In this document: in pieces, positions 6,429 through 62,872 of the stretch
Numbering within the stretch: position 1 is the first letter of the stretch
Layout of the letters: every line of letters starts with the position of its first letter
Assembly: GCF_000018365.1 (NCBI RefSeq)
Contig: NC_011529.1
Location: 744,001-808,000, forward strand
Direction: 5' to 3'
Length of the DNA: 64,000 nucleotides
DNA from: Thermococcus onnurineus NA1
GTDB lineage: Archaea > Methanobacteriota_B > Thermococci > Thermococcales > Thermococcaceae
The notes under the pieces: generated by a model
Database searches by the model: none
What the model was told of the DNA's origin: nothing
Seen by the model: only the letters and a program-made list of their open reading frames with translations
Program-made: the position numbers and the translations under genes

Positions 6429-7712
6429 ATGGAAGTCATCGAGAACTCCAAATTAGAGAGCTTTCACTACAGGCTTCTGGCAGTCCTCGGAGCGATATGG
6501 GCGTTCATTGCTGTGAACACTATAGCCGCGAGCTTGATTATACCCTTGCTGAAGGAGGAACCTGCTTTCCAGGGTAGCCTCGCCAAACTCGGTTCTCTTG
6601 GCTCGGCGGCCCTCTTCGGAATGCTTTTTGGGGCGTGGCTCTTCGGAATCCTCGCGGATCGCATAGGAAGGAAAAAAGCTCTGACCCTGGCCGTCGTCAC
6701 ATTCTCGCTCGGCTCCATAGTCAGCTCCTTTGCGGGAAGTCTTGATGAGCTCATAGCCCTCAGGTTCATCGTGGGGCTTGGACTCGGAGGTTCTCTGCCA
6801 GTTGCCAGCTCCTACTTCGCCGAATTCATGCCGAAGTCCGTGAGAGGAGCAATGATCTCAATCCTTGAGAGCTTCTGGGCAATAGGAACCATAATCATCG
6901 GAGTGGTGGCCCTTCTTGTGAGGGCAGACTGGAGGAATATCCTGCTCTTCGGTGGAGCGATCCTCCTTATTCTGCCTCTCCTGCTGACTCTGCCTGAATC
7001 TCCCAGGTTCCTCCTCGTGAAGGGAAGAATCTCGGAGGCCGAGGAAATACTGAGGAGGATCTTCGGCGTTGATGTAAAGCTTCAGAAACCCGGCGAGGAG
7101 CAGAAGAGGACCTCTATAGCCGATCTCTGGAGGAAATACTCAAGGAGAACCCTCATGCTGACCGTTGCGTGGTTCAGCATAGCCTTCGCCTACTACGGCT
7201 TCTTCATCTGGCTTCCCAAGTTCCTCTCCGCTACGCTTGGAATAACCGTCTTTAAGAGCTTCCAGTACTTCATCATAACCGCCATAGCCCAGCTGCCGGG
7301 ATACTGGAGCGCCGCATATCTTATCGAGCGCATCGGGAGGAAGAAGACTCTCTCTTCGTACCTGTTTCTATCAGGAATTGCAGGGGTAGCATTCTACCTG
7401 GCCGCAAGCTCCGCCAACGAGGCTATGATACTCTCGAGCGCCATACTCTTCAGCTTCTTCAACCTCGGCGCCTGGGGCGCCATCTACGCCTACACGCCGG
7501 AGCTCTACCCCACAAGCGTGCGCGGAACCGGCACCGGCTGGGCTGGGGCGATGGCCAGGATAGGCGGCGGGATAGCGCCGATACTGGCCGGGAGGATCAT
7601 GGAGGTTAGCGGAGCTGCCCTGGCAGTTCTGGTCATAGCGGTGGTCTCAATAATAGGCGCTCTGGACGTTCTGATCCTTGGCGAGGAGACTATGGGGAAG
7701 GAGCTGGCTTAA
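6429..7712 (+). CDS. MFS transporter, sugar-porter-like
   Basis: About 427 residues, twelve predicted membrane segments. Both halves carry the MFS signature (ADRIGRKKAL and IERIGRKKTL), and the sugar/organic-acid porter motif PELYPTSVRGTG precedes TM11. The central cytosolic loop contains PESPRFLL, also typical of SP-family carriers. The open frame begins at 6255, but GAGGTGATC at 6418-6426 sets the start at ATG 6429; the 58 upstream codons have no transporter character. It is a monocistronic gene convergent with the 7740-9662 operon. The actual substrate is not identifiable. Confidence 0.83.
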   Translation: MEVIENSKLESFHYRLLAVLGAIWAFIAVNTIAASLIIPLLKEEPAFQGSLAKLGSLGSAALFGMLFGAWLFGILADRIGRKKALTLAVVTFSLGSIVSSFAGSLDELIALRFIVGLGLGGSLPVASSYFAEFMPKSVRGAMISILESFWAIGTIIIGVVALLVRADWRNILLFGGAILLILPLLLTLPESPRFLLVKGRISEAEEILRRIFGVDVKLQKPGEEQKRTSIADLWRKYSRRTLMLTVAWFSIAFAYYGFFIWLPKFLSATLGITVFKSFQYFIITAIAQLPGYWSAAYLIERIGRKKTLSSYLFLSGIAGVAFYLAASSANEAMILSSAILFSFFNLGAWGAIYAYTPELYPTSVRGTGTGWAGAMARIGGGIAPILAGRIMEVSGAALAVLVIAVVSIIGALDVLILGEETMGKELA

Positions 7713-7739
7713 ATCTCTGTTTCATTTTTTCAGCTCCCA

Positions 7740-8213
7740 TCACGAAACCCCGAAGATCCCGAGACTGGGCACAAGCGTTATCGCCATACTTAGGAGTCCT
7801 CCGAGGATCAAGGCGGGAACGGTCATTCTCTTCTCGATGCCAAGCAGGTAAGCGGCCAGAGCCCCCGTCCATACGCCAGTTCCGGGAAAGGGTATGGCGA
7901 CAAAGATTGTTAATCCGAGGAATCCCCACTTCTCAACGTATGGGTGGGCTTTTCTCCTCACTCGCTCGATGTAGTACAGATAGAGCCTCGCAACATTCTC
8001 CAGCGGCGTTTTCCCCAGCCAGAGCATAAGTCTGTCTATGTAGGGCAGGATCGCCGGAAGGACAAGCGAGAGAAGCAGAACGCCAAGAGAAGCCGCCAGA
8101 AGGGTCTTCCACAGGGGATAGCCTTTACCTATGCCGTAAACGATAGCATATCTTCCCTCGAATGTGGGAACCAGAGATAGTATGAAAACCTCAAGGAGGT
8201 TATTCAACGTCAA
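7740..8213 (-). CDS. Putative small multidrug-export family membrane protein (COG2426)
   Basis: 157 residues with four to five hydrophobic segments. It matches the COG2426 family in its opening (a PTFEGRYAIVYGI segment) and in the conserved FVAIPFPGTGVWTG loop. The family name implies export, but the function is unproven and it resembles DedA-like proteins in its polar intramembrane loop. The start is a TTG at 8211-8213 preceded by GGAGGTG that lies inside the end of the PAP2 gene, so the two overlap by 14 nt and are translationally coupled. It is the last gene of the minus-strand operon led by the tandem-HTH regulator. Confidence 0.75.
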   Translation of the reverse strand: MTLNNLLEVFILSLVPTFEGRYAIVYGIGKGYPLWKTLLAASLGVLLLSLVLPAILPYIDRLMLWLGKTPLENVARLYLYYIERVRRKAHPYVEKWGFLGLTIFVAIPFPGTGVWTGALAAYLLGIEKRMTVPALILGGLLSMAITLVPSLGIFGVS

Positions 8214-8850
8214 ACACCTCCAGTTTGAGCTTTTTGACTATTGCCCTGTAGTGGGAAAGCCACCAGTTTTCGGCGAGCTCTACAACCATGCCCACCCAAG
8301 GGCCAAGTATGAAAGCGAAGAGAACATCGCTGAACCAGTGAACGTGAAGTAGCAGTCTTGAAAGGGCTATCCCAATTGCCCAACCCCACCAGAGCGGCCA
8401 GAACTTTTTCCAGCGCCTGCTCAGAAAGTACGCGAGCACTGCGGCCCTGGTGGTGTGGCCCGAAGGAAACGCGAAATAGTCGGCGTTCTTTAGTGATTCG
8501 ATCAAATTCCAGTGAACTTGGGCCTCCCCCGGGCGCGGAATACCCATTAAGACTTTCAACAAGCCCACTATGAACATCGAGATGACAACACCAATGATTA
8601 TCTCAATGGTAAACTTGCTCAACTTTTTTTGCTTCAAAATATCCCACAGGAGGAATATGAGAATATAAACGGCAACTGCAACAAAGCTCGCTGTATCGGT
8701 GAGCAGGCTTACAGAAGAACCTCCTTGGGGGAGAGTTGAGTCTATCCAGGTATTAATGCCATCGAAAAGCCTAACCCATTCAGCAAGAAGCAAGAAAATT
8801 ATAAGAGCCGTGAATGCCAGTGTAGCTCGATATTTAGTACTTTCACCCAT
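8200..8850 (-). CDS. PAP2-family membrane phosphatase
   Basis: About 216 residues with six hydrophobic segments and all three phosphatidic-acid-phosphatase motifs in order: KVLMGIPRP, PSGHTTR, and SRLLLHVHWFSD. The catalytic His residues and the Arg/Lys phosphate-binding residues are all present. Such enzymes dephosphorylate lipid phosphates, for example polyprenyl-PP carriers recycled after glycosylation. I prefer ATG 8848-8850, preceded by AAGGAGGG, over a TTG at 8883. It overlaps the upstream small membrane-protein gene by 8 nt and the downstream COG2426 gene by 14 nt. Confidence 0.85.
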   Translation of the reverse strand: MGESTKYRATLAFTALIIFLLLAEWVRLFDGINTWIDSTLPQGGSSVSLLTDTASFVAVAVYILIFLLWDILKQKKLSKFTIEIIIGVVISMFIVGLLKVLMGIPRPGEAQVHWNLIESLKNADYFAFPSGHTTRAAVLAYFLSRRWKKFWPLWWGWAIGIALSRLLLHVHWFSDVLFAFILGPWVGMVVELAENWWLSHYRAIVKKLKLEVFDVE

Positions 8851-9127
8851 TCCTCCTGCCCTCCTTAATGGCCACGGCAGCAAAAAATAGGGCTATCACT
8901 AAGAACTCCACGAGATTCGTCATGAGCTCCAGGGTACTGTTCTCTATATCGGGAAAGACTATGTCCACATGCTCCACAAGCTCTTTCACAGCATAGAGCA
9001 GAAACGCAAGAGATACTATAAAGAACTTTCTAAGCCCTGTCCGGTGGTATGCGATTAGTGAAGCGCCGGTAAGAAGAAGTGAAAAGGTAACAATGCCAAG
9101 GCTCAGAAGTTGATCCACGTCCAGCAT
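8843..9127 (-). CDS. Small three-helix membrane protein of unknown function
   Basis: 94 residues with three hydrophobic stretches (about residues 4-24, 32-50 and 70-88) and short charged loops; one loop carries an acidic ELVEHVDIVFPDIE segment. I do not recognise a named family with confidence, although archaeal genomes often pair such three-helix proteins with winged-helix regulators. GGAGGTGA supports ATG 9125-9127. It begins one base after the stop of the regulator gene and overlaps the PAP2 gene, so it belongs to the same operon. It could sense or anchor something for the regulator, which is speculation. Confidence 0.7.
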   Translation of the reverse strand: MLDVDQLLSLGIVTFSLLLTGASLIAYHRTGLRKFFIVSLAFLLYAVKELVEHVDIVFPDIENSTLELMTNLVEFLVIALFFAAVAIKEGRRNG

Positions 9128-48886: not shown

Positions 48887-49216
48887 ATGGTAAAAGCGCT
48901 TGTTATAATCTCCAGTGAGGACGAAAAAGCTCTGGTAGGATTCATGTGGGCTACCAATGCTTTGAAATACAAGTGGGTGGAAGACGTTGAGGTGATACTT
49001 TTCGGACCAATCGAAAGGAATATCGCAGAGGGGGATAGGAAATTTCTTCAGTGGATTGAGAAGCTGAGGGAGCTAGGCAAGCTTCCCCTTTCGTGCAAAA
49101 GGATAGCCGAGGATGGAGGTTTTGCAGTAAAGCTGGAAAAGTACACCAGAGTGGAATACGTGGGGAAGATAATAGCGGACTACCTCGAAAAAGGTTACGT
49201 CCCGATGACTTTTTGA
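48887..49216 (+). CDS. DsrE-like sulfur-carrier family protein
   Basis: 109 residues with the DsrE/TusD-like alternating fold: ALVIISSEDEKALVGFMWATNA, then VEVILFGPIERNI and a C-terminal LEKGYVPMTF. Cys in LPLSCKRIAEDGG is a candidate persulfide carrier. It follows the five-Cys protein by 2 nt with GGGGTAGAG as ribosome-binding site, so both belong to one operon. The family passes sulfur between proteins; partner and end product are not evident. Confidence 0.75.
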   Translation: MVKALVIISSEDEKALVGFMWATNALKYKWVEDVEVILFGPIERNIAEGDRKFLQWIEKLRELGKLPLSCKRIAEDGGFAVKLEKYTRVEYVGKIIADYLEKGYVPMTF

Positions 49217-49275
49217 TGAAAAAAGCTTCAAGAAAAGATTTTTATCCCGTAAATTTATTATTTTGGGTGATATTT

Positions 49276-50571
49276 ATGAGGAAGTTGCTCCCAATCATAT
49301 TCATTTTCATGCTCTCGATTGGATTTGCTAAGGCCGGTGAGGTAAAATACGGCGAGCTAACCTTTCACGATGTCTCAACCGTGGAAGAGCTGGATAGCCT
49401 AATCAGGGCCCACGAGGGTGAGTACTTTTTCATCTTCTACCACTCGGAGAGCTGTCCAGCGTGCAACTACATGAAGACAAGCGTTTTCCCGACTGAGAAA
49501 TCTAAGGAGACCCTTTTGGGATTAAACCTTGTCTCCATCGACGTTTACAAAGCGCGCTCCCTTACAACGCTCAGATACAGGGTTTACGATGACGTTGTGG
49601 TCATCCAGCCCGACAACGCCGGTTACTACAGGCCAAAAACTCTGGGAGAAGAGATAAGTGTCGGCGTTCCGGGAACACCAACAATGGTGATATTCAAGGT
49701 CGAGAATGGCACCAAAATCCTGAAGGGAGTAGCGATCGGTGCGCTCAATCCTAATGGTTTGGAGTTCTTCGTGAAGACCGCGGTGGGAAACGATGAAAAA
49801 CCCCAAGGAGGGGAACAAACTCAAACCACGGAAACTGCAACGCACCGTGCCCAGGAAGATAACACAAACCTAACTCTCGCGGTTCTCCTGCCGATATTCT
49901 CGGCTGGAATACTGAGTGTCTTCTCACCCTGCGTTCTGCCCCTCATAGTTGGCACTTTCTCCCTCACTTTCGCGAGGAGGAGCGTGGAGCTGATAATAGC
50001 TGGCATGGTGTTATCTTTCGCCCTCCTGGGCGCTCTGGCGGGTAGTTTTGGTTCCTACGCGGCCCAGATAAAGGGAGCCCTGTACCTCATAGGCGGTCTC
50101 GGCTTCATAGTGATTGGCCTGGGCTTCCTGAGCGAGAGCGTAAGCGCCAAGCTTGAGAGGTTCCTGAGCTTTTCGGCATCGGATAAGGTGGCGTCGAAGA
50201 GAGGAAAGCTGTATGACTTCGCCCTCGGCTCGGCCTTGGGGGCCACATGGCTCGGCTGCATAGCCCCTTACGTCGGCTTCGCCGTCATTACTGCCGCACT
50301 AAGCGGGGACACACTCAAAGGAATAATCGTGATGGGAACCTACGGCCTTGGCATGGGGCTGACGGTTTACCTGATTGTCTCCTCGAAGGACTTGGGGGAC
50401 TGGATAAACAGGAAGTTCCTCTCCGGGAGGATAAGCCTAGGCAAGTCTGGCAAAGCAAAGTGGGAGCGGGCCTTGGGCGTAATCCTCGTGCTCCTCGGCC
50501 TGCTTATGCTCACAGAACTCACGCCGTTAAAGCTCTGGAGCGCCCTCTTTGAGGGCCTTTCAAAACTCTGA
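49276..50571 (+). CDS. Exported thioredoxin domain fused to CcdA/DsbD-type membrane transporter
   Basis: About 431 residues in three parts: signal segment (1-20), an extracytoplasmic thioredoxin-like domain (about 25-185) with active site HSESCPACNYM (Cys60/Cys63) and cis-Pro loop GVPGTPTMVIF, then a six-helix CcdA domain with FSPCVLPLIVG in TM1 and LGCIAPYVGF in TM4, the cysteine pair that moves electrons across the membrane. It resembles a compact archaeal DsbD delivering reducing power outward. GGGTGAT precedes ATG 49276, with TTTTTATC as TATA 30 bp earlier. Confidence 0.88.
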   Translation: MRKLLPIIFIFMLSIGFAKAGEVKYGELTFHDVSTVEELDSLIRAHEGEYFFIFYHSESCPACNYMKTSVFPTEKSKETLLGLNLVSIDVYKARSLTTLRYRVYDDVVVIQPDNAGYYRPKTLGEEISVGVPGTPTMVIFKVENGTKILKGVAIGALNPNGLEFFVKTAVGNDEKPQGGEQTQTTETATHRAQEDNTNLTLAVLLPIFSAGILSVFSPCVLPLIVGTFSLTFARRSVELIIAGMVLSFALLGALAGSFGSYAAQIKGALYLIGGLGFIVIGLGFLSESVSAKLERFLSFSASDKVASKRGKLYDFALGSALGATWLGCIAPYVGFAVITAALSGDTLKGIIVMGTYGLGMGLTVYLIVSSKDLGDWINRKFLSGRISLGKSGKAKWERALGVILVLLGLLMLTELTPLKLWSALFEGLSKL

Positions 50572-53443: not shown

Positions 53444-53896
53444 ATGGTAAAAGTTGGTGATGTTGCACCGGATTTTGTTTTGAAAGACCAGAATGGGGAG
53501 GAGTTCAGGCTGAGTGACTTCAGGGGGAGGAAGGTTCTTCTGTCTTTCCATCCTCTAGCATGGACTAGCATCTGCGAAAGGCAAATGAAGGCTCTAGAGG
53601 AACATTACGATGAGCTTGAGGAGCTCAACGTCGTTCCTGTGGGAATAAGCGTTGATCCAGTCCCAACAAAAAAGGCATGGGCGGATCACATGGGCCTTAA
53701 AAAGCTTAGAATGCTGGCGGACTTCTGGCCCCATGGGGAAGTTGCACGTAAGTATGGCCTCTTCAGAGAGAAGGATGGCATCTCTGAAAGGGCGAACGTG
53801 ATAATAGACGAAAACGGCAGGGTGGCTTTTGTGAAGATCTATCCCCTCGGAGAGCTTCCGAACTTAAACGAGATACTGGCAGTCCTGAAGGGATGA
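53444..53896 (+). CDS. Single-cysteine peroxiredoxin
   Basis: 150 residues, AhpC/TSA family. The peroxidatic motif is [14 protein letters not shown] with Cys44, the only Cys in the protein, so it must use a 1-Cys mechanism or an external resolving thiol. SLEEL-type helices after the active site and the [20 protein letters not shown] segment are normal. ATG lies 1 nt after the KOR beta-subunit stop; cotranscription suggests protection of the oxygen-sensitive oxidoreductase. Third peroxiredoxin of the window. Confidence 0.87.
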
Positions 53897-53936
53897 GTTA
53901 ATAACCCCCGAAAGAGAACTCAATGTGGTGATCGCA

Positions 53937-55166
53937 ATGCCCAAGGTCTGGACTGAAAAAATACTGGATGACCCCGAGCTTTACCTTATAAGGATTGATG
54001 ACGACGGGATCAAGTACTTCGAGGCTACCTGGGACATCCCGGAGGGCATAACCTACAACGCTTACCTCATGAAGCTCGAAGATGCCGTTGTTCTCTTTGA
54101 CATGACCAAAAAAGAGTATACGGAGGAATTCATGGAGGCCCTCAAGAGCATCGTTAACCCCAAAGAGATAACACACATCATCATCCATCACACCGAGCCG
54201 GATCACAGCGGAGCCCTTCCGGCAGTTCTTGAGGCCAACGGGTATAGGGCCCAGCTCATAGGTACGAGCTTTGCGAAGCGCTTCCTTGAGGGGTTTTACG
54301 GAGAAAAGGTCGTCGAGAACTTCTACACAATCAAGGACGGCGAGGAGATGAACATCAGCGGAAAAACCTTTCGCTTCATAACCGTCCCGTGGCTTCACTG
54401 GCCGGACACGATGATAACCTATGTCGTTGAGGATAAGCTCATCTTCAGCTGCGACGCCGGCGGAGGCTACTCCATTCCCCCAGTCATTGACGACAGCGAC
54501 GAAAAGGTTATCGAGGAATATCTCCCCCATGTCACCAAGTACATAGTCACCGTCATAGGCCACTACCACAAGTACATAGTCCAGAACATAAAGAAGCTCA
54601 AGGAGCTCGGCATAGTGCAGGAGGCAAGGATGATACTCCCAGGACACGGACTGATATGGCGCAAGAATCCCATGAGGATATTTGAGCACTACGAGGCTGT
54701 CGGTGCTGGAAAAGTAAAGAAGGGCAAGGTTCTCGTCATCTACGACTCGATGTACGGCTTCGTCGAGAGAAGGATGGAGATTGTTTTGGACGAGCTCAGG
54801 AAGCACGGCCTCAACCCGGTTGTCTACAAGTTCACGGACAAAGAAGCACCTGCAGTTAGCGATATACTCGGCGATGTCCCAGACAGCGAGGCGCTCATAA
54901 TAGGAGCATCCACCTATGAGGCCGAGATACACCCACGCATACGCTACGCTCTCTACGAGATACTCGACAAGGCCAACTATGAGAAGCCCGTTTTAATAGT
55001 CGGCGCCTTCGGCTGGGCGGGCGTTGCTGGAAAGAAGATAGAGACCATGATAACCCGCAGCAAGTTCGATCACGTGGACACGGTTGAATCGCGCGGATGG
55101 CCAACTCCAGAGGATGAGGAGAGGCTTAGAGAAGGCGTCAGAAAGCTTGTCAGGTGGATTTCCTGA
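53937..55166 (+). CDS. Flavodiiron protein (rubredoxin-dependent oxygen/NO reductase)
   Basis: 409 residues. The N-terminal beta-lactamase-like diiron domain (about 1-250) carries H-x-E-x-D-H in IHHTEPDHSGALP (His85, Glu87, Asp89, His90), later WPDTM, CDAGG and VIGHYHKY iron ligands. The C-terminal flavodoxin domain (about 265-409; YDSMYGFVERRMEIV, GASTYEAEIHPR, FGWAGVAGKK) binds FMN. It reduces O2 to water with electrons from rubredoxin. GGTGATC precedes ATG 53937. Neighbours supply rubredoxin reductase and rubredoxin. Confidence 0.94.
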   Translation: MPKVWTEKILDDPELYLIRIDDDGIKYFEATWDIPEGITYNAYLMKLEDAVVLFDMTKKEYTEEFMEALKSIVNPKEITHIIIHHTEPDHSGALPAVLEANGYRAQLIGTSFAKRFLEGFYGEKVVENFYTIKDGEEMNISGKTFRFITVPWLHWPDTMITYVVEDKLIFSCDAGGGYSIPPVIDDSDEKVIEEYLPHVTKYIVTVIGHYHKYIVQNIKKLKELGIVQEARMILPGHGLIWRKNPMRIFEHYEAVGAGKVKKGKVLVIYDSMYGFVERRMEIVLDELRKHGLNPVVYKFTDKEAPAVSDILGDVPDSEALIIGASTYEAEIHPRIRYALYEILDKANYEKPVLIVGAFGWAGVAGKKIETMITRSKFDHVDTVESRGWPTPEDEERLREGVRKLVRWIS

Positions 55167-55238
55167 CCTTTTTATTATTTAGTCTCATTGCGTAGGTTTA
55201 AATACTTCAAACACAAATGTTACACACAGGTGATGTTA

Positions 55239-55778
55239 ATGGATGAGATTCTTGACAAACTTGTTAAGCTCCCGCTGAGGGAGATAATTGGCTACGCTAT
55301 AGCCTCAGAAGACGATACCAAGGCTTTTTATGAGGGCCTGGCCTTCAAAACAGGGGGGCTGCTCAGAGACTTCTTTCAGACCCTCGCTAAATTAGAGGAC
55401 TCCCACAAGAAGACCCTCCTAAGACTGCACGAAACGCTCTTTGGGGATACTGATTACACCGTTCCCGAAGGGATACCCTTTGCCGAAACCTCGATCAGAG
55501 TCGACACTGTTGTCAACCTCGTGGAGGCTATGAGAATTGCCCTAATCAATGAAAAAACCGCAGAGAGGCTATACACCCACCTGGAAAAACGCCTTCCGGA
55601 GCACGGGATCATATTCGGATTCTTGGCGGCGCAGGAGAGATCCCACTACGCGTCCATAAAGTCCCACGTCGAATATCTCGAGGACGTCACGGAGGGCAAG
55701 CCAGAATACATCAACGTTCCCATCGAGCACCTTAACACCCAGCTCGAACTTTATCTAGCGCCCCATACGCGGCTGTGA
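55239..55778 (+). CDS. Rubrerythrin-like ferritin-fold protein without rubredoxin domain
   Basis: 179 residues, two helix pairs: AIASEDDTKAFYEGLA then LEDSHKKTLLRLHETLF, and ALINEKTAERLYTHLE then QERSHYASIKSHVEYL. The E-x2-H-type ligands are kept in the second pair (ERSH), while the first reads EDSH. This is a diiron 'erythrin' fold. Likely a peroxidase or iron-binding protein using an external electron donor. GGTGAT at 55229-55234 sets ATG 55239; a TATA-like TTTAAATAC lies at 55197-55205. Followed 9 nt later by the rubredoxin reductase gene. Confidence 0.82.
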   Translation: MDEILDKLVKLPLREIIGYAIASEDDTKAFYEGLAFKTGGLLRDFFQTLAKLEDSHKKTLLRLHETLFGDTDYTVPEGIPFAETSIRVDTVVNLVEAMRIALINEKTAERLYTHLEKRLPEHGIIFGFLAAQERSHYASIKSHVEYLEDVTEGKPEYINVPIEHLNTQLELYLAPHTRL

Positions 55779-55787
55779 GGTGACAGC

Positions 55788-56873
55788 GTGAGGGTTGTAA
55801 TAGTCGGCGATGGGCCTGGAGGAGTTGAACTTGCTAAGAGACTCTCTGGGGACTTTGAAGTAACAATAGTGGACAAAGAAGGTCTCCCTTACTACTCAAA
55901 GCCGATGCTGAGCCACTACATAGCAGGATTTGTGGATGAAAAGGCTCTTTTTCCGTATTCAGCCGAATGGTACGAGCGGAAGGGGATAGACCTCAGATTA
56001 GGCGTTGAAGCCAAGATCATAGACAGAGCGAGGAATGTTCTCGTGACGAGCAAGGGGAATATTCCCTATGATGTCCTCGTTCTTGCGACTGGCGCAAGGG
56101 CAAGAGAGCCTTCCATACCCGGGAGGGAGCACATCCTGACCCTAAGAACCTTTGACGACGCCAAGATGATAAAGGAAAGGCTTGAAGGAGAGGGAGAGAT
56201 CACGGTCCTTGGCGGCGGCTTCATAGGGCTTGAGCTGGCCGGGAATGTGGCCAAGGCAGGCTATTCTGTCAAGCTTATCCACAGGAGCAAGAATCTCCTC
56301 AGACTGGACGAGGAGCTGAGCGAAAAGCTCCAGGAAAAGCTGGAGGAGGTCGGAGTTGGGTTCCACCTCGAGGCCAACCTCCTGAAGGCCGATAAGAACG
56401 GTGTGGAGACCGATAAGGGGTACATCCCCGGGAGGCTTAAGGTCTGCGCCTTCGGGGTAGTTCCCAACAAGGAGCTAGCTTTGAGGAGCGGAATCCACGC
56501 TGGGCGTGGAATATTTATAGATGCAGGGTTAAGAACCTCTGCGAAGGACATCTACGCAATAGGTGACTGCGCCGAGTACAGCGGGACGATATGCGGGACT
56601 GCCAAAACTGCTGTAGAGCACGCAAAGATCCTCGCAAACCTGCTCAGGGAGCAGGATAACCACTACGACTTCTCCTTCTGCTCGGCGCTCTTTAAGTTCG
56701 CCGACTTAAACGTTGCATTGATTGGAAGAACAAAGGGAGAAGGCAGGTGGCTTGATGAAAAAACGAAAGTTTTCTACAAAGATGAAAAGCCCATTGGGGC
56801 AGTTGTGCTCGGAGACGTAAGGAGAGCCATGGAGGTCGAGAAAGCAATCAGAGAAGGACTGCTTATTGACTGA
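55788..56873 (+). CDS. NAD(P)H:rubredoxin oxidoreductase
   Basis: 361 residues. FAD motif [16 protein letters not shown] at the N-terminus, central NAD(P)-binding [15 protein letters not shown], and [10 protein letters not shown] for FAD. Size and motifs match the Thermococcales NROR, which passes electrons from NADPH/NADH to rubredoxin for superoxide reductase, rubrerythrin and the flavodiiron protein. GTG start at 55788 after GAGGTGAC. It is flanked by its electron acceptors, which supports the assignment. A new promoter for rubrerythrin follows. Confidence 0.92.
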
Positions 56874-56888
56874 AGTGATAAAGCGTAC

Positions 56889-56917
56889 AAACTCAAGGTT
56901 TAGAAAATCGTTATATA
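56889..56917 (+). promoter_or_regulatory. Rubrerythrin promoter with AAAC/GTTT inverted repeat
   Basis: AAAC-TCAAG-GTTT at 56889-56901 is an inverted repeat just upstream of the TATA element TTATATA (56911-56917). The ATG of rubrerythrin follows at 56962. The arm AGGTTT matches arms at the two peroxiredoxin promoters. Confidence 0.5.
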
Positions 56918-56961
56918 CCCCACCACCCAACTATTAATGCAGAACCTCTGTTGGTGATAGT

Positions 56962-57477
56962 ATGGTTGCGGAAAGGAAAATGACTCGGAAGTTTCTGGAG
57001 GAGGCCTTCGCTGGCGAAAGCATGGCCCACATGAAGTACCTTATCTTCGCCGAGCAGGCGGAGAAGGAGGGCTATCCTAACATAGCCAAGCTCTTCAGGG
57101 CAATAGCCTATGCCGAGTTTGTCCATGCCAAGAACCACTTCATAGCCCTCGGAAAGCTGGGCAAGACCCCCGAGAACCTGCAAGAGGCTATAAATGGGGA
57201 GACCCACGAGGTTGAGGAGATGTACCCTGTCTTTAAGAACGCGGCCGAGTTCCAAGGCGAAAGGGATGCCGTCAGAACAACTCACTACGCCCTCGAGGCA
57301 GAAAAGATACATGCTGATTTCTACGCAAAGGCAAAAGAGAGGGTCGAGAAAGGAGAGGACTTCGAGATAAAAAAGGTCTACATCTGTCCCGTTTGCGGCT
57401 ACACCGCCGTCGATGAAATCCCCGAGAAGTGCCCAGTGTGCGGTGTTCCAGGAGATAAGTTTGTGGTCTTCGAGTGA
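56962..57477 (+). CDS. Rubrerythrin
   Basis: 171 residues. The diiron four-helix domain (about 1-130; AFAGESMAHMKYLIFAEQAE, AIAYAEFVHAKNH, ETHEVEEMYPVF, HYALEAEKIHADFY) is followed by a C-terminal rubredoxin-like iron site, CPVCGY and CPVCGVPG. All ligands of a peroxidase rubrerythrin are seen. It reduces H2O2 using electrons from rubredoxin. GGTGATAGT precedes ATG 56962. It lies between the rubredoxin reductase and rubredoxin genes. Confidence 0.95.
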   Translation: MVAERKMTRKFLEEAFAGESMAHMKYLIFAEQAEKEGYPNIAKLFRAIAYAEFVHAKNHFIALGKLGKTPENLQEAINGETHEVEEMYPVFKNAAEFQGERDAVRTTHYALEAEKIHADFYAKAKERVEKGEDFEIKKVYICPVCGYTAVDEIPEKCPVCGVPGDKFVVFE

Positions 57478-57502
57478 TTTCTTTGTTTTTCTTAATGGAC
57501 AA

Positions 57503-57527
57503 GTTTGAAACACAAACCTTATAAGGC
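57503..57527 (+). promoter_or_regulatory. Promoter of the rubredoxin-SOR operon, with a SurR-like GTTnnnAAC site
   Basis: GTTTGAAAC (57503-57511) fits the GTTn3AAC half of the site known for the redox regulator SurR of Thermococcales, though the second GTT expected five bases later is missing. The TATA element CCTTATAAGG (57518-57527) is itself palindromic and preceded by AAA, so AAACCTTATAAGG also includes the AAACCT arm. Confidence 0.45.
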
Positions 57528-57559
57528 CTGACTAACAACATTAGAGTGAGGTAATGGAA

Positions 57560-57721
57560 ATGGCAAAGTGGAAATGTATAGTTTGTGGATACATCTATGA
57601 TGAGGATGAAGGCGACCCGGACACCGGAATCGAGCCGGGAACCAAGTTTGAAGACCTTCCCGAAGACTGGGTCTGCCCGCTCTGCGGCGCCCCCAAGGAT
57701 ATGTTTGAAAAGATAGAGTGA
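57560..57721 (+). CDS. Rubredoxin
   Basis: 53 residues, too short for most ORF filters. The iron site is formed by CIVCG (Cys6/Cys9) and CPLCGAP (Cys39/Cys42), with the usual [10 protein letters not shown] loop, [11 protein letters not shown] and length of archaeal rubredoxins. It carries single electrons from the rubredoxin reductase to SOR, rubrerythrin and the flavodiiron protein. GTGAGGT is spaced correctly for ATG 57560; ATG 57554 is too close. The SOR gene begins 10 nt after its stop. Confidence 0.97.
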
Positions 57722-57731
57722 GGTGGTGAAA

Positions 57732-58079
57732 GTGCTTAGCGGAACCATAAAGAGTGGTGACTGGAAGGGAGAGAAGCACGTGCCCGTTATAGAGTACGAG
57801 AAGGAGGGTGACCTCATCAAAGTTGAGGTCAGCGTCGGAAAGGAGATACCACATCCGAACACCCCAGAGCACCACATCGCCTGGATCGAGCTTTACTTCC
57901 ACCCTGAGGACGGCAACTTCCCGATTCTTGTCGGCAGGGTTGCCTTCACCAACCACAGCGACCCGCTCACTGAGCCGAAGGCCATCTTCTTCTTCAGGAC
58001 CCAGAAGAAGGGCAAACTCTACGCCCTGAGCTACTGCAACATCCATGGCCTCTGGGAGAACGAGGTCGAGCTTGAGTGA
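57732..58079 (+). CDS. sor: Superoxide reductase (neelaredoxin type)
   Basis: 115 residues, Fe-only (1Fe) SOR. Visible ligands: Glu14 and His16 in GDWKGEKHVP, His41 and His47 in PHPNTPEHHI, and Cys102/His105 in SYCNIHGLW, i.e. the complete Glu/4His/Cys set. It reduces superoxide to H2O2 without making O2. It is shorter than the P. furiosus enzyme by about nine residues in the loop after GRVAFT. Start GTG 57732 after GAGGTGG gives the standard N-terminus; it is cotranscribed with rubredoxin, its electron donor. Confidence 0.95.
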   Translation: MLSGTIKSGDWKGEKHVPVIEYEKEGDLIKVEVSVGKEIPHPNTPEHHIAWIELYFHPEDGNFPILVGRVAFTNHSDPLTEPKAIFFFRTQKKGKLYALSYCNIHGLWENEVELE

Positions 58080-59591: not shown

Positions 59592-59891
59592 TCAAAGCTC
59601 TACTTTTATCCCGGTCTCTCCCTCAACCTCCTCAAATCCCCTTTTCATCCACTCCTTCAGCTCAGGGTCGAGCTTGAGGAGCAGAGCCAAGAACTCGCCT
59701 ACATGCTCCTTCTCCTCGTTTGCAACATCGAGGAAGGTGTGTTTTACCGCCTCATCATCAATCAGCTCGGCAAACTGCTCGTAGAAGTTTATAGCGTCGA
59801 GCTCAGCTATGACCGCCCAGCGGAGGGCCTGGACGATTTCCTTCTTTGACAGCTTTTCTTTGTCTATGGAAATGGGGTTCAAACCCAGCAT
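59592..59891 (-). CDS. EncFtn-like (encapsulin-cargo-type) ferritin
   Basis: 99 residues, two-helix ferritin-like subunit. The ferroxidase residues appear as AVIAELDAINFYEQFAEL and VANEEKEHVGEFLALLLK, followed by DPELKEWMKRGFEEV. This E...E-x2-H half-ferritin closely follows the pattern of encapsulated ferritins and of the N-terminal domain fused to Pyrococcus encapsulin. Two subunits would make one diiron site. No encapsulin shell gene is present in the window. GGTGATTCC sets ATG 59891 rather than ATG 59906. Confidence 0.82.
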   Translation of the reverse strand: MLGLNPISIDKEKLSKKEIVQALRWAVIAELDAINFYEQFAELIDDEAVKHTFLDVANEEKEHVGEFLALLLKLDPELKEWMKRGFEEVEGETGIKVEL

Positions 59892-59935
59892 GGAATCACC
59901 GTCCATATATCGTCCCTGAAAGTTATAACGCTTCC

Positions 59936-60415
59936 TCAGTCAACCTCGAGGCTGAAATCCATGTAGTCCATCCATATGCCCGTCTTCATGACGGAGTCGT
60001 ACTGTGCTTTAAGCAGCTCATAGTGGGACTTCTCGACCTTTGCGAGCTCTTCAAAAATACGCCTGACACCCTCATGCTCGGCCTCCTTTGCCGCCCGCTC
60101 GTAGAACTCCCATGTCAGCTTTTCCTGCTCCATTCCAATCCTTACCGCATCGACTTCACTGAGGTTTTTTTCGTCCACTTTAACCAAAAGCTTTTCGAGA
60201 GTTTTCCTATCCACCGAGGGCAGCTCGCACTTCTCTATCAAGGCCTCGACGAACTTTTCCTCAAACAGGCTCCAGTGTCCAGCCTCCTCGTGGGCCAAAA
60301 ATAAGAACATCCTTCTTGCCCTATCATCCTTGGCCTTTTTGGCCAGCTCTAGGTAGAACTTCAGCTCGGTCTTCTCGACTTCCAAAGCCAAAGCTAAAGT
60401 CTCAATCTCCTTCAT
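59936..60415 (-). CDS. Rubrerythrin-like ferritin-fold protein
   Basis: 159 residues, two helical pairs with diiron ligands: ALEVEKTELKFYLELAKKA, HEEAGHWSLFEEKFVEAL, GMEQEKLTWEFYERAAKEA and KVEKSHYELLKAQYDSV. It lacks a rubredoxin domain. GGTGGTATC precedes ATG 60415; the longer frame to 60502 overlaps the divergent promoter and is not used. It is divergent from a GNAT gene over only 67 nt, and convergent in spirit with the MIP18 operon. Third of four related proteins. Confidence 0.85.
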   Translation of the reverse strand: MKEIETLALALEVEKTELKFYLELAKKAKDDRARRMFLFLAHEEAGHWSLFEEKFVEALIEKCELPSVDRKTLEKLLVKVDEKNLSEVDAVRIGMEQEKLTWEFYERAAKEAEHEGVRRIFEELAKVEKSHYELLKAQYDSVMKTGIWMDYMDFSLEVD

Positions 60416-60482
60416 GATACCACCAAAGAGTTTTATTGAGCTTCTGACTAATAACCTTTGGTGATCGAAAGTGGGGATTGAA

Positions 60483-61007
60483 ATGATCGAAATTCCCATC
60501 AAGCTAAAAGATGAGCTGGTAAAGTTCGTCTTCAGGGTTTACAGGGGCACGAATGGGACGTATCCAGCGCTCGAATGGGTAGAAAACAAGCCGAATATTG
60601 ACGATTTTGAGGGCTTCAGGAAGGTTTACGAGCCTTTCCTTGAGTTCCGTCTTGGGAAAGAGTTCGACGAGCTATACGTTCTGAAGGAAGGTGGAAAGAT
60701 AATAGGCACCCTCGCCCTCGTCTACAACCTGGATGGAAAGGACGTCTGGTGGGTGCCAAAGGAGATTAAGAGCGAGAGAACAGGCCTCATAGAGTTCTTC
60801 ATGGTTGATCCTGCCTACAAAGGTAAAGGCTACGGCTCAGAGCTCCTAGAGTTCGCCATAACTCGCCTGGCCGAGCTCAGAAAAGATGCCTACGTGATAA
60901 CCTTCCCGAACCTTGAGGCCTACGGCTACTATCTCAGGAAGGGCTTCGAGAAGGTGATGGACTACAAGGAGTTCGTGGTGCTGAAATATAAAGGTCAGAG
61001 AACATAG
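60483..61007 (+). CDS. GNAT-family N-acetyltransferase
   Basis: 174 residues. The acetyl-CoA binding motif A is FFMVDPAYKGKGYGSELLEFA (a Q/R-x-x-G-x-G/A variant), followed by motif B, NLEAYGYYLRKGFEKV. The N-terminal half has a charged substrate domain. The acceptor is not recognisable. Start ATG 60483 with GTGGGGATT upstream. The gene is divergent from the ferritin-like gene and its end overlaps the convergent b561-like gene by 13 nt. Confidence 0.83.
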   Translation: MIEIPIKLKDELVKFVFRVYRGTNGTYPALEWVENKPNIDDFEGFRKVYEPFLEFRLGKEFDELYVLKEGGKIIGTLALVYNLDGKDVWWVPKEIKSERTGLIEFFMVDPAYKGKGYGSELLEFAITRLAELRKDAYVITFPNLEAYGYYLRKGFEKVMDYKEFVVLKYKGQRT

Positions 61008-61348
61008 TTGTAGAGCCCGAAGAGTATCTGGAGCATAAGCAGGAGTACCGCTATCATCGCCAAGAACTTGTGCTGTTCCCTCGTTATTTTTCTCCCCAGG
61101 AAAGCCCTTCCGCTTAGAACTGTGAGGAGAACATAGACGTAGACAAAAAGTCCTAACCTGCTGTGTGTTGATGGAACCCAACCGATTGTGTAGAACATAT
61201 ATGATATCCCGACCGTCAGGAGTCCCACTGCAGTGTAAACGAACGAGTGGTGCATCTTCAGATTGTGGCTCTTTGCGTAGTAAATTCCTATCAGAAAGCT
61301 TAGAAGGGCAAGAGTCTGGATGATAGCATGTACTCGGAAGTGCTCCAT
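60995..61348 (-). CDS. Four-helix cytochrome b561-like membrane protein
   Basis: 117 residues with four transmembrane helices. One His lies at the start of each helix: His7 (TM1), His33/His34 (TM2), His62 (TM3) and His93 (TM4). Because the topology alternates, His7 and His62 face one side and His34 and His93 the other, which is the two-heme pattern of cytochrome b561/ferric-reductase cores. The preceding gene encodes a DOMON lipoprotein, the usual fusion partner of b561 in eukaryotes. GGGGTGAG sets ATG 61348. Heme content is inferred, not shown. Confidence 0.7.
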   Translation of the reverse strand: MEHFRVHAIIQTLALLSFLIGIYYAKSHNLKMHHSFVYTAVGLLTVGISYMFYTIGWVPSTHSRLGLFVYVYVLLTVLSGRAFLGRKITREQHKFLAMIAVLLLMLQILFGLYNYVL

Positions 61349-61370
61349 CTTCTCACCCCAAAAAGGAAAA

Positions 61371-61979
61371 TCAGCCGTCAAGGGTCAGCTCGCCGCTGCC
61401 TCGAGCTATATTGTGTTTTGTTGTAAAGTCGTCGACGTCGGCCATCGCGAAGATGAATTTAATTTTCTGCCCTGGCTTGAAGACCTTATCGTACTTGTCT
61501 CCGGTGTCAAGCTTCCTCTTGAACTCTATGACGGTGTAGCCGTTCTCCTCTTTTCCAGCGAAGGCCAGAATATCGTTCGTTCCGCCCAGCTCTCCATCAG
61601 GAGGATGAGGCCCATAGGTCCCCGTCGAGTACGCGTCTATGACCACGATCTGACCATCCTGCACCCAGCCGAAGATCATGTCGGCATCCTTCATTGCAAC
61701 GCTCGGCTCAAATCCTATTGCCACCCAGCCCGTTGTCTGCCCCTTGAGGGCCACGTAGAGATACTCCTCATCGTTCCTCCAGTATACAACAAACTTGTCA
61801 TTGGCAAGTGAGAGCTTATGGGAGTATTCGTTTTCTCCGATAACACCGTCTGCTTTCCACTCACTTAGAGTCGTCGCCGTAGAAACTGAGGAAGATGTTG
61901 TTGAAATACTTTCACCGCCTATGCATCCGCTCAGAAAAACCACAAAAACAAAAACCAAACCCAACAAAGCTCTTTTCAT
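61371..61979 (-). CDS. DOMON-domain lipoprotein (heme-binding type)
   Basis: 202 residues. A lipoprotein signal with lipobox LSGC (Cys19) and a Ser/Thr linker precede a DOMON beta-sandwich (about 40-200). The region TTGWVAIGFEPSVAMKDADM supplies Met96 and HNIARG gives His189, the positions of the Met/His heme ligands in cellobiose-dehydrogenase-type DOMON domains. It would face the outside, tethered by lipid. AGGTGAATC precedes ATG 61979. Its stop is 22 nt before the b561-like gene, so both form an operon. Confidence 0.78.
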   Translation of the reverse strand: MKRALLGLVFVFVVFLSGCIGGESISTTSSSVSTATTLSEWKADGVIGENEYSHKLSLANDKFVVYWRNDEEYLYVALKGQTTGWVAIGFEPSVAMKDADMIFGWVQDGQIVVIDAYSTGTYGPHPPDGELGGTNDILAFAGKEENGYTVIEFKRKLDTGDKYDKVFKPGQKIKFIFAMADVDDFTTKHNIARGSGELTLDG

Positions 61980-62172
61980 TAGATTCACCTAAAATAATCA
62001 GTTTTTCTACATATATAAACTTTTTCCCGGTATAAAATCCGACCTTGTCTACTTTTGCTTTTCAGTCTCATGCTGGGATGGAGCATTTTTTAATAAGATC
62101 AAAAAATTTAGGTAAAGTATAGCATCCCCAGCATTCCGGGCTTATGTTGTATGAGTGACGTGAACGGGGAGC

Positions 62173-62697
62173 TCAGAAGTTGAAGTTTATATCTTTCATG
62201 AGCTGGTCGTAAAACTCCTCCTTGTAGACGTCAGGATAGCGCATTATGTAGTCGTACTGCTTCCTCAGCATATTGTAGTGGTTCCTCTCCATGTCAGCGA
62301 GCATCTCAAGGAGAAGTTTGGTCTTTTCGGTGGCTGCATAGCCAGCCAGTTCCTTGTAGAGCTTCTCGCTGATGAGTTCAGCCTGCATGGAAATCTCATA
62401 AATCTCGTCAATGTTTATATCGGGCTTGCTTATAGCTTCAGCCATCTTCTCGGCTACGACCTTGAACTCCCCCATTATGTCTATCTCTATCTTCTTGGGC
62501 TCAACGTTTTCGCCCGTGAACTTTTCGGCCATTCTCTCTATGATTTCCCTGTGTTTGTCCTCCTCCTTGGCCAAGAAAAGGAGTTCGTCCCCTATTATGT
62601 CGCTCTTGACGAGAGAAGCAAGCTTCTCATAGGCCTCCTTGGCCCTAATCTCAGAGTTTATGGCAATCTCAAAAACTTCCTTGTCTGTTATCTCCAC
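62173..62697 (-). CDS. Rubrerythrin-like ferritin-fold protein
   Basis: 174 residues with four helices carrying ligand patterns: AINSEIRAKEAYEKLA, KEEDKHREIIERMAEKF, QAELISEKLYKELAGYA and DMERNHYNMLRKQYDYI. No rubredoxin domain. The best start is GTG 62697 after GGTGATTT; ATG 62709 (no ribosome-binding site) would add four residues. It lies alone between the DOMON/b561 pair and the his operon, divergent from the latter. Fourth related rubrerythrin-like protein in 8 kb. Confidence 0.83.
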   Translation of the reverse strand: MEITDKEVFEIAINSEIRAKEAYEKLASLVKSDIIGDELLFLAKEEDKHREIIERMAEKFTGENVEPKKIEIDIMGEFKVVAEKMAEAISKPDINIDEIYEISMQAELISEKLYKELAGYAATEKTKLLLEMLADMERNHYNMLRKQYDYIMRYPDVYKEEFYDQLMKDINFNF

Positions 62698-62872
62698 GCA
62701 AATCACCATATCTATCTCGCTTTCAAGTCTATTAACATTTTCGATTACATTTTTCGGAAGACCCATAGGCGGTCATTTTGGATATATCTACTAAGTTCCT
62801 CGCGCAGTTTTTAGATATTATGACAAGATTTTCACGCATTGCAGACATCTTGACAGAAAATCATTGGATAGG

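Follow-up and report, generated by a model that had tools for sequence, protein, structure and literature searches.

Two neighbouring genes of Thermococcus onnurineus NA1 (genome size 1.85 Mb) code for a DOMON lipoprotein and a small b561-like membrane protein with four helices. With moderate confidence we interpret this pair as a split version of the CYBDOM-type DOMON-cytochrome b561 proteins which operates as an outward electron relay. Adjacency, orthology, ligand positions, fold similarity, charge topology and redox context of the pair were computed here. The window, i.e., the whole stretch of DNA analysed, comprises 64,000 nucleotides of contig NC_011529.1 and all coordinates refer to it unless a locus is named; G and L numbers are our labels for genomes and loci. 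The pair and its convergent neighbour are arranged as follows:

61371-61979, minus strand: DOMON lipoprotein gene (202 aa, ATG at 61979, Pfam DOMON)
60995-61348, minus strand: gene of the b561-like four-helix membrane protein (117 aa, ATG at 61348)
60471-61007, plus strand: GNAT acetyltransferase gene (Pfam Acetyltransf_1)

The DOMON gene comes first and is separated from the b561-like gene by a gap of 22 nt between its stop codon and the next ATG. Both ATG codons are preceded by GGTGA located 4-5 nt upstream, and an in-frame GTG at 61988 is an alternative start of the DOMON gene. The acetyltransferase gene shares 13 nt with the end of the b561-like gene; it is not thought to be part of the DOMON/b561 system and is considered as context. 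Both genes of the pair look to be under purifying selection, the highest dN/dS being 0.49 for DOMON (30 pairs) and 0.51 for the b561-like gene (27 pairs; dS 0.05-1.5, pairs not independent in either set). Orthology and selection together rule out a chance pair of ORFs.

The lipoprotein belongs to the Pfam DOMON family (PF03351; 103.4 bits with a cut-off of 32.7, E 1.2e-29), and its N-terminus is a signal peptide with the lipobox LSGC. The original prediction of a DOMON lipoprotein with Met96 and His189 as candidate heme ligands agrees with the reading frame, the residue numbering, the lipobox and the Pfam score. Both residues, as well as His125, are invariant in the 26 aligned Thermococcaceae DOMON sequences, paralogues included (26 of 30 loci, the damaged G015, G028, G069 and G084 being left out). 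Among 80 public DOMON loci, overlapping in part with the genomes of our 94-genome set, 76 have Met in the Met96 column and 72 have His in the His189 column.

The model of the lipoprotein (pLDDT 83.3) is closest in fold to DBH (Z 14.5), the gamma subunit of ethylbenzene dehydrogenase (13.8), NxrC (13.0) and the cytochrome domain of CDH (12.8), while CBM9 sugar binders score below these heme-binding DOMON-like domains (Z 9.3-10.0). NxrC was also the top match of the DOMON profile among PDB sequences, with an E value of only 0.034. The CDH cytochrome domain and ethylbenzene dehydrogenase gamma share the DOMON-like beta sandwich with our lipoprotein, and theirs holds a b heme; the title of PDB entry 1pl3 names Met65 as the residue mutated in CDH. 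To our knowledge, however, these two work in soluble or enzyme complexes and are not paired with b561. In the DOMON tree (104 rows, some genomes entered twice) sequences of the window type form a single Thermococcaceae clade (99/92) adjoining a Thermoproteota group (100/99), with methanogen sequences located farther out.

The b561-like protein has histidines at positions 3, 7, 28, 33, 34, 62, and 93. H7, H34, H62, and H93 are invariant in all 19 aligned Thermococcaceae proteins; the same is true of H28 and H33, which the original prediction passed over, so six of the seven histidines never vary. These rows exclude the G015 copy, which has an inner stop and retains all four His, the broken copy of G028, that of G055, whose N-terminus is lost together with His7, that of G081, cut by a contig end, and a second, partial copy in G068. 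Such invariance appears to be more than chance would give: the enrichment of His among the 16 invariant positions out of 117 has a hypergeometric p of 1.7e-5, a value which ignores relatedness. H7, H34, H62, and H93 are also present in 11 of 11 rows of an alignment including two Spirochaetota and two Thermoplasmatota sequences. Variation of the ligands in close homologues had been named beforehand as an observation that would overturn the idea, and neither protein has it (26/26 and 19/19).

In the AlphaFold2 model (pLDDT 91.8, pTM 0.83) the helices span residues 2-26, 30-55, 61-84, and 90-116. His7, His34, His62, and His93 are located near helix starts on alternating membrane faces, two per face, just as had been proposed. 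H7/H62 and H34/H93 are the candidate pairs for an outer and an inner heme, respectively, so the arrangement expected of the b561 family, i.e., four putative ligand histidines in two pairs on four core helices, seems to be in place. Loops 1-2 and 3-4 are richer in Lys/Arg in 19 of 19 proteins, which by the positive-inside rule corresponds to an outside N-terminus; both termini are thus predicted to be outside. This predicted topology puts H7 and H62 on the lipoprotein side of the membrane and H28, H33, H34, and H93 on the cytosolic side.

Assignment of the small protein to a family is less straightforward. Plant cytochrome b561 was the top Foldseek match of the model, but with an E value of 0.23. 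VIA-align superposed all 117 residues on plant b561 (4o6y; 2.0 A, 21% identity, Z 12.7) and on Dcytb (5zle; 2.2 A, 20% identity, Z 11.6). However, unrelated helical bundles reach Z 14.7, and 12.7 is inside the warning range of the tool for such bundles: scores equal to or above those of b561 were obtained for de novo bundles, oxidase subunit III, TRP channels, and FliS. The Foldseek E value and the scores of unrelated bundles are counted against the split CYBDOM reading. So is the Pfam result, where no family exceeded its cut-off for this protein. Cytochrom_B561 (PF03188) gave a partial match over residues 5-52 with 17.6 bits (cut-off 23) and was outscored by DUF420 (PF04238; 22.7 bits) and EamA (20.6 bits), themselves below their cut-offs of 30.5 and 28.2. 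The protein is therefore not a DUF420 member by score either. A PF03188 profile search of the whole NA1 genome found no match, but control genomes were equally silent, making this search uninformative.

Relatives of the protein score better. Cytochrom_B561 is recognised over the cut-off in the Spirochaetota protein of L097 (45.4 bits), in L172 of G114 (31.9 bits) and in L092, a Methanomassiliicoccales MAG, where a single ORF contains both DOMON (95.0 bits) and Cytochrom_B561 (38.8 bits) over their cut-offs. Profile A1 had no match among PDB sequences, but the wider joint profile A4, made of L097, L108, L092, L093 and seven Thermococcaceae rows (11 rows), matched Dcytb with E 0.0011 and plant b561 with E 0.062. 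When aligned with Dcytb, H7, H62, and H93 correspond to His 50, 120, and 159 of the chain, while H34 is unaligned, with His86 of the chain within an insertion next to it. His 50, 86, 120, and 159 are presumably the heme ligands of Dcytb. The putative b561 membership of the small protein rests on this chain, in which the protein itself is below the cut-off, its relatives pass and their joint profile reaches Dcytb. It shares with PF03188 proteins such as Dcytb and plant b561 the four-helix core and the four candidate ligand histidines, but differs from them in consisting of the four core helices only and in its sub-cut-off sequence.

As the small protein has its best Pfam match in DUF420 and CBM9 sugar binders are found among the DOMON-like folds, the two genes could also be unrelated neighbours, one coding for a sugar-binding DOMON and the other for a DUF420-like helper of membrane enzymes. 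We regard this as improbable, given that heme-binding DOMON-like domains outscore CBM9, that L092 fuses DOMON to a b561 domain passing the Pfam cut-off, and that the two genes adjoin each other wherever a close DOMON orthologue is present.

The latter became clear from a survey of 94 Thermococcaceae genomes. The b561-like protein is encoded in 23 of them. DOMON matches at E 0.001 occur in 54 genomes, many being short matches to the signal peptide, and a close DOMON orthologue (best piece at least 69% identical) in 21. All 21 belong to the 23 b561 carriers and are adjacent to the b561-like gene on the same strand (Fisher p 5e-19, ignoring relatedness), so the co-occurrence for which a genome survey had been recommended is indeed observed. 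The two carriers without a close DOMON orthologue are G055, with its truncated b561 copy, and G089. Four of the 21 pairs are damaged: both genes are broken in G028 and G015, a stop interrupts DOMON in G069 and parts of DOMON are missing in G084, which suggests ongoing loss in some lineages. The b561-like gene of G081 runs off the contig end. This patchy presence (23/94) and the damage in 4/21 pairs are also counted against the split CYBDOM reading.

A second, paralogous DOMON type, about 36-45% identical, is encoded elsewhere in Thermococcaceae genomes. It does not seem to have a b561 of its own: neither a b561-like nor a rubrerythrin-like cluster was present in the four loci examined (L153-L156). 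By eye, genes near these paralogues were read as HAD hydrolase and glycine cleavage P proteins. In G002 (L150) the DOMON-b561 pair occupies the site of the paralogue.

The plant CYBDOM protein HYP1 likewise combines DOMON with a b561 core. According to the excerpted text of PMC10784544, its proposed ligand pairs are H211-H278, H245-H314, and Met90-His174, which match, in this order, H7-H62, H34-H93, and M96-H189 of the archaeal pair. In HYP1 the H211/H278 pair faces the DOMON side, the position predicted for H7/H62 here. The histidine spacing is 27/28/31 here, corresponding to a shorter b561 core, versus 34/33/36 in HYP1. Unlike CYBDOM proteins, the archaeal system has a lipoprotein anchor and is encoded by two genes instead of one polypeptide; heme synthesis, too, is not seen here, in contrast to HYP1 and its relatives. 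HYP1 uses ascorbate as its donor, which one would not expect to find in an archaeon. The pair most likely works like a CYBDOM protein, but we do not file it as one.

In the split CYBDOM reading, two b hemes would sit in the four-helix protein, one bound by H34/H93 near the cytosolic face and one by H7/H62 near the outer face, while the lipoprotein, anchored outside, would hold a third one via Met96/His189. A donor in the cytosol would supply electrons, which would pass through the membrane to the lipoprotein and on to an acceptor outside the cell, with Fe(III) or an oxidant as the most likely candidates. Such a relay would serve iron and oxygen defence and would use imported heme. Heme occupancy, physical pairing, direction, donor, and acceptor are those elements of the scheme that we infer.

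Heme supply bears directly on this scheme. ALAD (PF00490) was found in none of the 94 family genomes, while 11 of 14 control genomes were positive, and it was not found in G113 and G114, two genomes of the same class but of another family. AhbD (TIGR04545) did not exceed its cut-off in any of the 94 genomes. At E 0.001 TIGR04545 matched 94/94 genomes and 14/14 controls (one of these over the cut-off); since controls match alike, the sub-cut-off matches are probably other radical SAM proteins. Hem genes are absent from a listing for three Pyrococcus and four Thermococcus species in the excerpted part of PMC3004389, which offers the lack of need for heme, or its uptake, as options and regards uptake as unlikely for many free-living microbes. 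This view of uptake, together with the lack of ALAD matches and of AhbD matches over the cut-off in 94 genomes, is counted against the split CYBDOM reading. Thermococcaceae appear unable to make tetrapyrroles, a point the original prediction overlooked. The absence of ALAD implies that hemes are obtained from outside or that the sites are empty, and heme loading of the pair, itself a hypothesis, is the main uncertainty.

Two further explanations start from this point. One is that the histidines and the Met/His pair no longer hold heme in vivo, being relics or serving another ligand. Heme synthesis not being seen (ALAD in 0/94 genomes and, within the excerpt, PMC3004389), the patchy presence and the damaged pairs would all fit such empty sites. 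We nevertheless find this unlikely, as both genes look to be under purifying selection and the ligand positions are kept across genera. The other explanation, to which we give similarly low credence, is heme capture: the DOMON lipoprotein would bind environmental heme, and the membrane protein would receive it or move it inward, as an iron source or to supply other hemoproteins, the organism being unable to make heme. A surface lipoprotein with heme-ligand positions, iron-related neighbours and the lack of ALAD are what one would expect in this case, but the partner families are electron carriers. Moreover, the two-heme b561 geometry is known from electron transfer and not from transport.

The original prediction had placed the pair, as separate genes, in an iron and oxygen-stress region, and the Pfam assignments of its neighbours bear this out:

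62173-62766, minus strand: rubrerythrin-family protein, directly upstream of the DOMON gene (Pfam Rubrerythrin 49.3 bits)
59936-60424, minus strand: rubrerythrin-family protein (Pfam Rubrerythrin 60.4 bits)
59592-59906, minus strand: small EncFtn/EncB-like ferritin (Pfam Rubrerythrin 34.8, EncFtn-like 31.3 bits)
53444-58079, plus strand: oxygen-defence gene block (Pfam)

The block includes genes for a peroxiredoxin, a flavodiiron-type protein, a rubrerythrin-like protein, NAD(P)H:rubredoxin oxidoreductase, a rubrerythrin, and superoxide reductase. Six of the 11 PF02915 matches over the cut-off in the genome fall in 7.4 kb around the pair. The small ferritin also matches NCBIfam EncB_fam (82.2 bits, below the cut-off of 90) and resembles encapsulin cargo. 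The product of the gene at 49093-50571 has a thioredoxin-like domain ahead of a DsbD-type membrane domain, possibly another trans-membrane reducing path near the island. As in the original prediction, we infer Fe(III) reduction or oxygen removal as a possible role of the pair.

We compared 17 neighbourhoods (the window and 16 fetched ones, of 23 carriers), taking as rubrerythrin-like the BLAST cluster which holds such proteins of the window and leaving out antisense ORFs (clusters 9, 12, 26 and probably part of 6). A rubrerythrin-like gene lies within 2.1 kb of the b561-like gene in 14 of the 17 and at 4 kb in one; it is missing from the fetched stretch in the other two (G069, G002), and it accompanies the paralogous DOMON in 0 of 4 loci. 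In G040, G084, G075, and G087 it is located upstream on the same strand, as in the window. This count is not independent, much of it being shared descent. More independent evidence comes from two other archaeal lineages. In G113 and G114 b561 is fused to another outer domain, its gene abuts an EncFtn-like gene, and an AhpC-type peroxiredoxin is encoded 2.5 kb away; in L092 the fused DOMON-b561 gene is followed, after 11 nt, by an AhpC-type gene.

Several other genes recur beside the pair. A divergent PF00174-type gene (typed by Pfam on L146 only) with a small membrane protein is found in L137 (G068), L138 (G001), L146 (G047), L151 (G015), and L148 (G069). The small protein has two histidines 16 residues apart and is encoded in 29/94 genomes without being tied to the pair; a protein weakly similar to it (E 5e-4) precedes the DOMON gene of L089. 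In L142 (G074), L146 and L151 the divergent neighbours code for a repeat protein of the Lipoprotein_15 type, a regulator of the ArsR type and a membrane protein of 93 aa. In L066 (5120-5692), relatives of the latter two (50-57% and 40-47% identical, respectively) are also located alongside a Thermoproteota DOMON gene.

A b561-like partner, split or fused, was recognised in eight of the 80 public DOMON loci, three of which belong to Thermococcaceae (L057, L058, L060). In Spirochaetota (L097, L108, L116) the two are separate ORFs, the b561 start and the DOMON His189 being missing from the frames seen in L116, while in Thermoplasmatota (L092, L093) DOMON is fused to b561. The scans recognised no b561 partner in the other 72 loci, including all six of Thermoproteota, and this, like the partnerless paralogue, is counted against the split CYBDOM reading. 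DOMON-b561 fusions had been regarded as eukaryotic. They do occur in plant and animal proteins, but an exclusively eukaryotic distribution is contradicted by L092, where both domains share one archaeal ORF. The L092 fusion has DOMON and b561 in the same order as the pair. Unlike the pair, it consists of a single ORF, and its N-terminus is extended by a stretch that has no Pfam match.

If heme-loaded, the pair would give archaea seemingly devoid of heme synthesis a trans-membrane conduit of b hemes, would make heme scavenging in Thermococcaceae testable and would add an outward electron path to the oxygen-defence set, which is usually described as cytosolic. Archaea and bacteria have versions that are split, fused or joined to a swapped partner, and these are prokaryotic relatives suitable for testing where the CYBDOM reductases of plants and animals came from. 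More tentatively, we speculate that heme scavenged by non-synthesising hyperthermophiles loads a three-heme surface conduit reducing oxidants or Fe(III), and that this conduit is part of a wider prokaryotic DOMON-cytochrome b toolkit for oxygen defence, a possible source of the eukaryotic fusions. Heme and sugar recognition by DOMON was treated by Iyer et al. in 2007, a work that may cover prokaryotic cases. Among the matches listed in our literature searches on DOMON, cytochrome b561 and Thermococcales heme, none describes this pair in its title or the opening of its abstract. The BcnA-LcoA system of Gram-negative bacteria also has a secreted beta protein encoded beside a cytochrome b561, a lipocalin where our pair has DOMON, and its role is lipid peroxidation defence, as stated in the excerpt of PMC9113575. 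DOMON modules are known from other electron-transfer settings as well, among them certain ferric reductases of eukaryotes (excerpt of PMC3591440) and a bacterial cytochrome of the MtrA family (excerpt of PMC8805035).

Further domain combinations were seen in the loci examined. Extracellular stretches starting with HPPSDI or HSPSNI precede the b561 part in L171 (G113; 7772-8602) and L172 (G114; 7996-8913), both on the minus strand, and the DOMON-b561 part in L092 (5281-6900). They have no Pfam match in the two scanned and are possibly a new outer partner of b561. Methanothrix-type DOMONs in 12/80 loci (L067, L068, L070, L071, L072, L074, L075, L077, L084, L085, L087, L100) carry a C-terminal stretch of 176-185 aa, identified as DUF2202, which we take to be a ferritin-like domain, in the scanned L067. 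In Chloroflexi (L083, L090, L094, L095, L099) the gene after DOMON codes for a two-helix protein (88-99 aa), which may be one more small partner of the cytochrome b kind; that of L090 has a His-x13-His pattern and no Pfam match. A ferric-reductase-type flavocytochrome, with Ferric_reduct and FAD-/NAD-binding domains, is encoded after DOMON in L136 (Fermentibacteraceae; 6431-7780).
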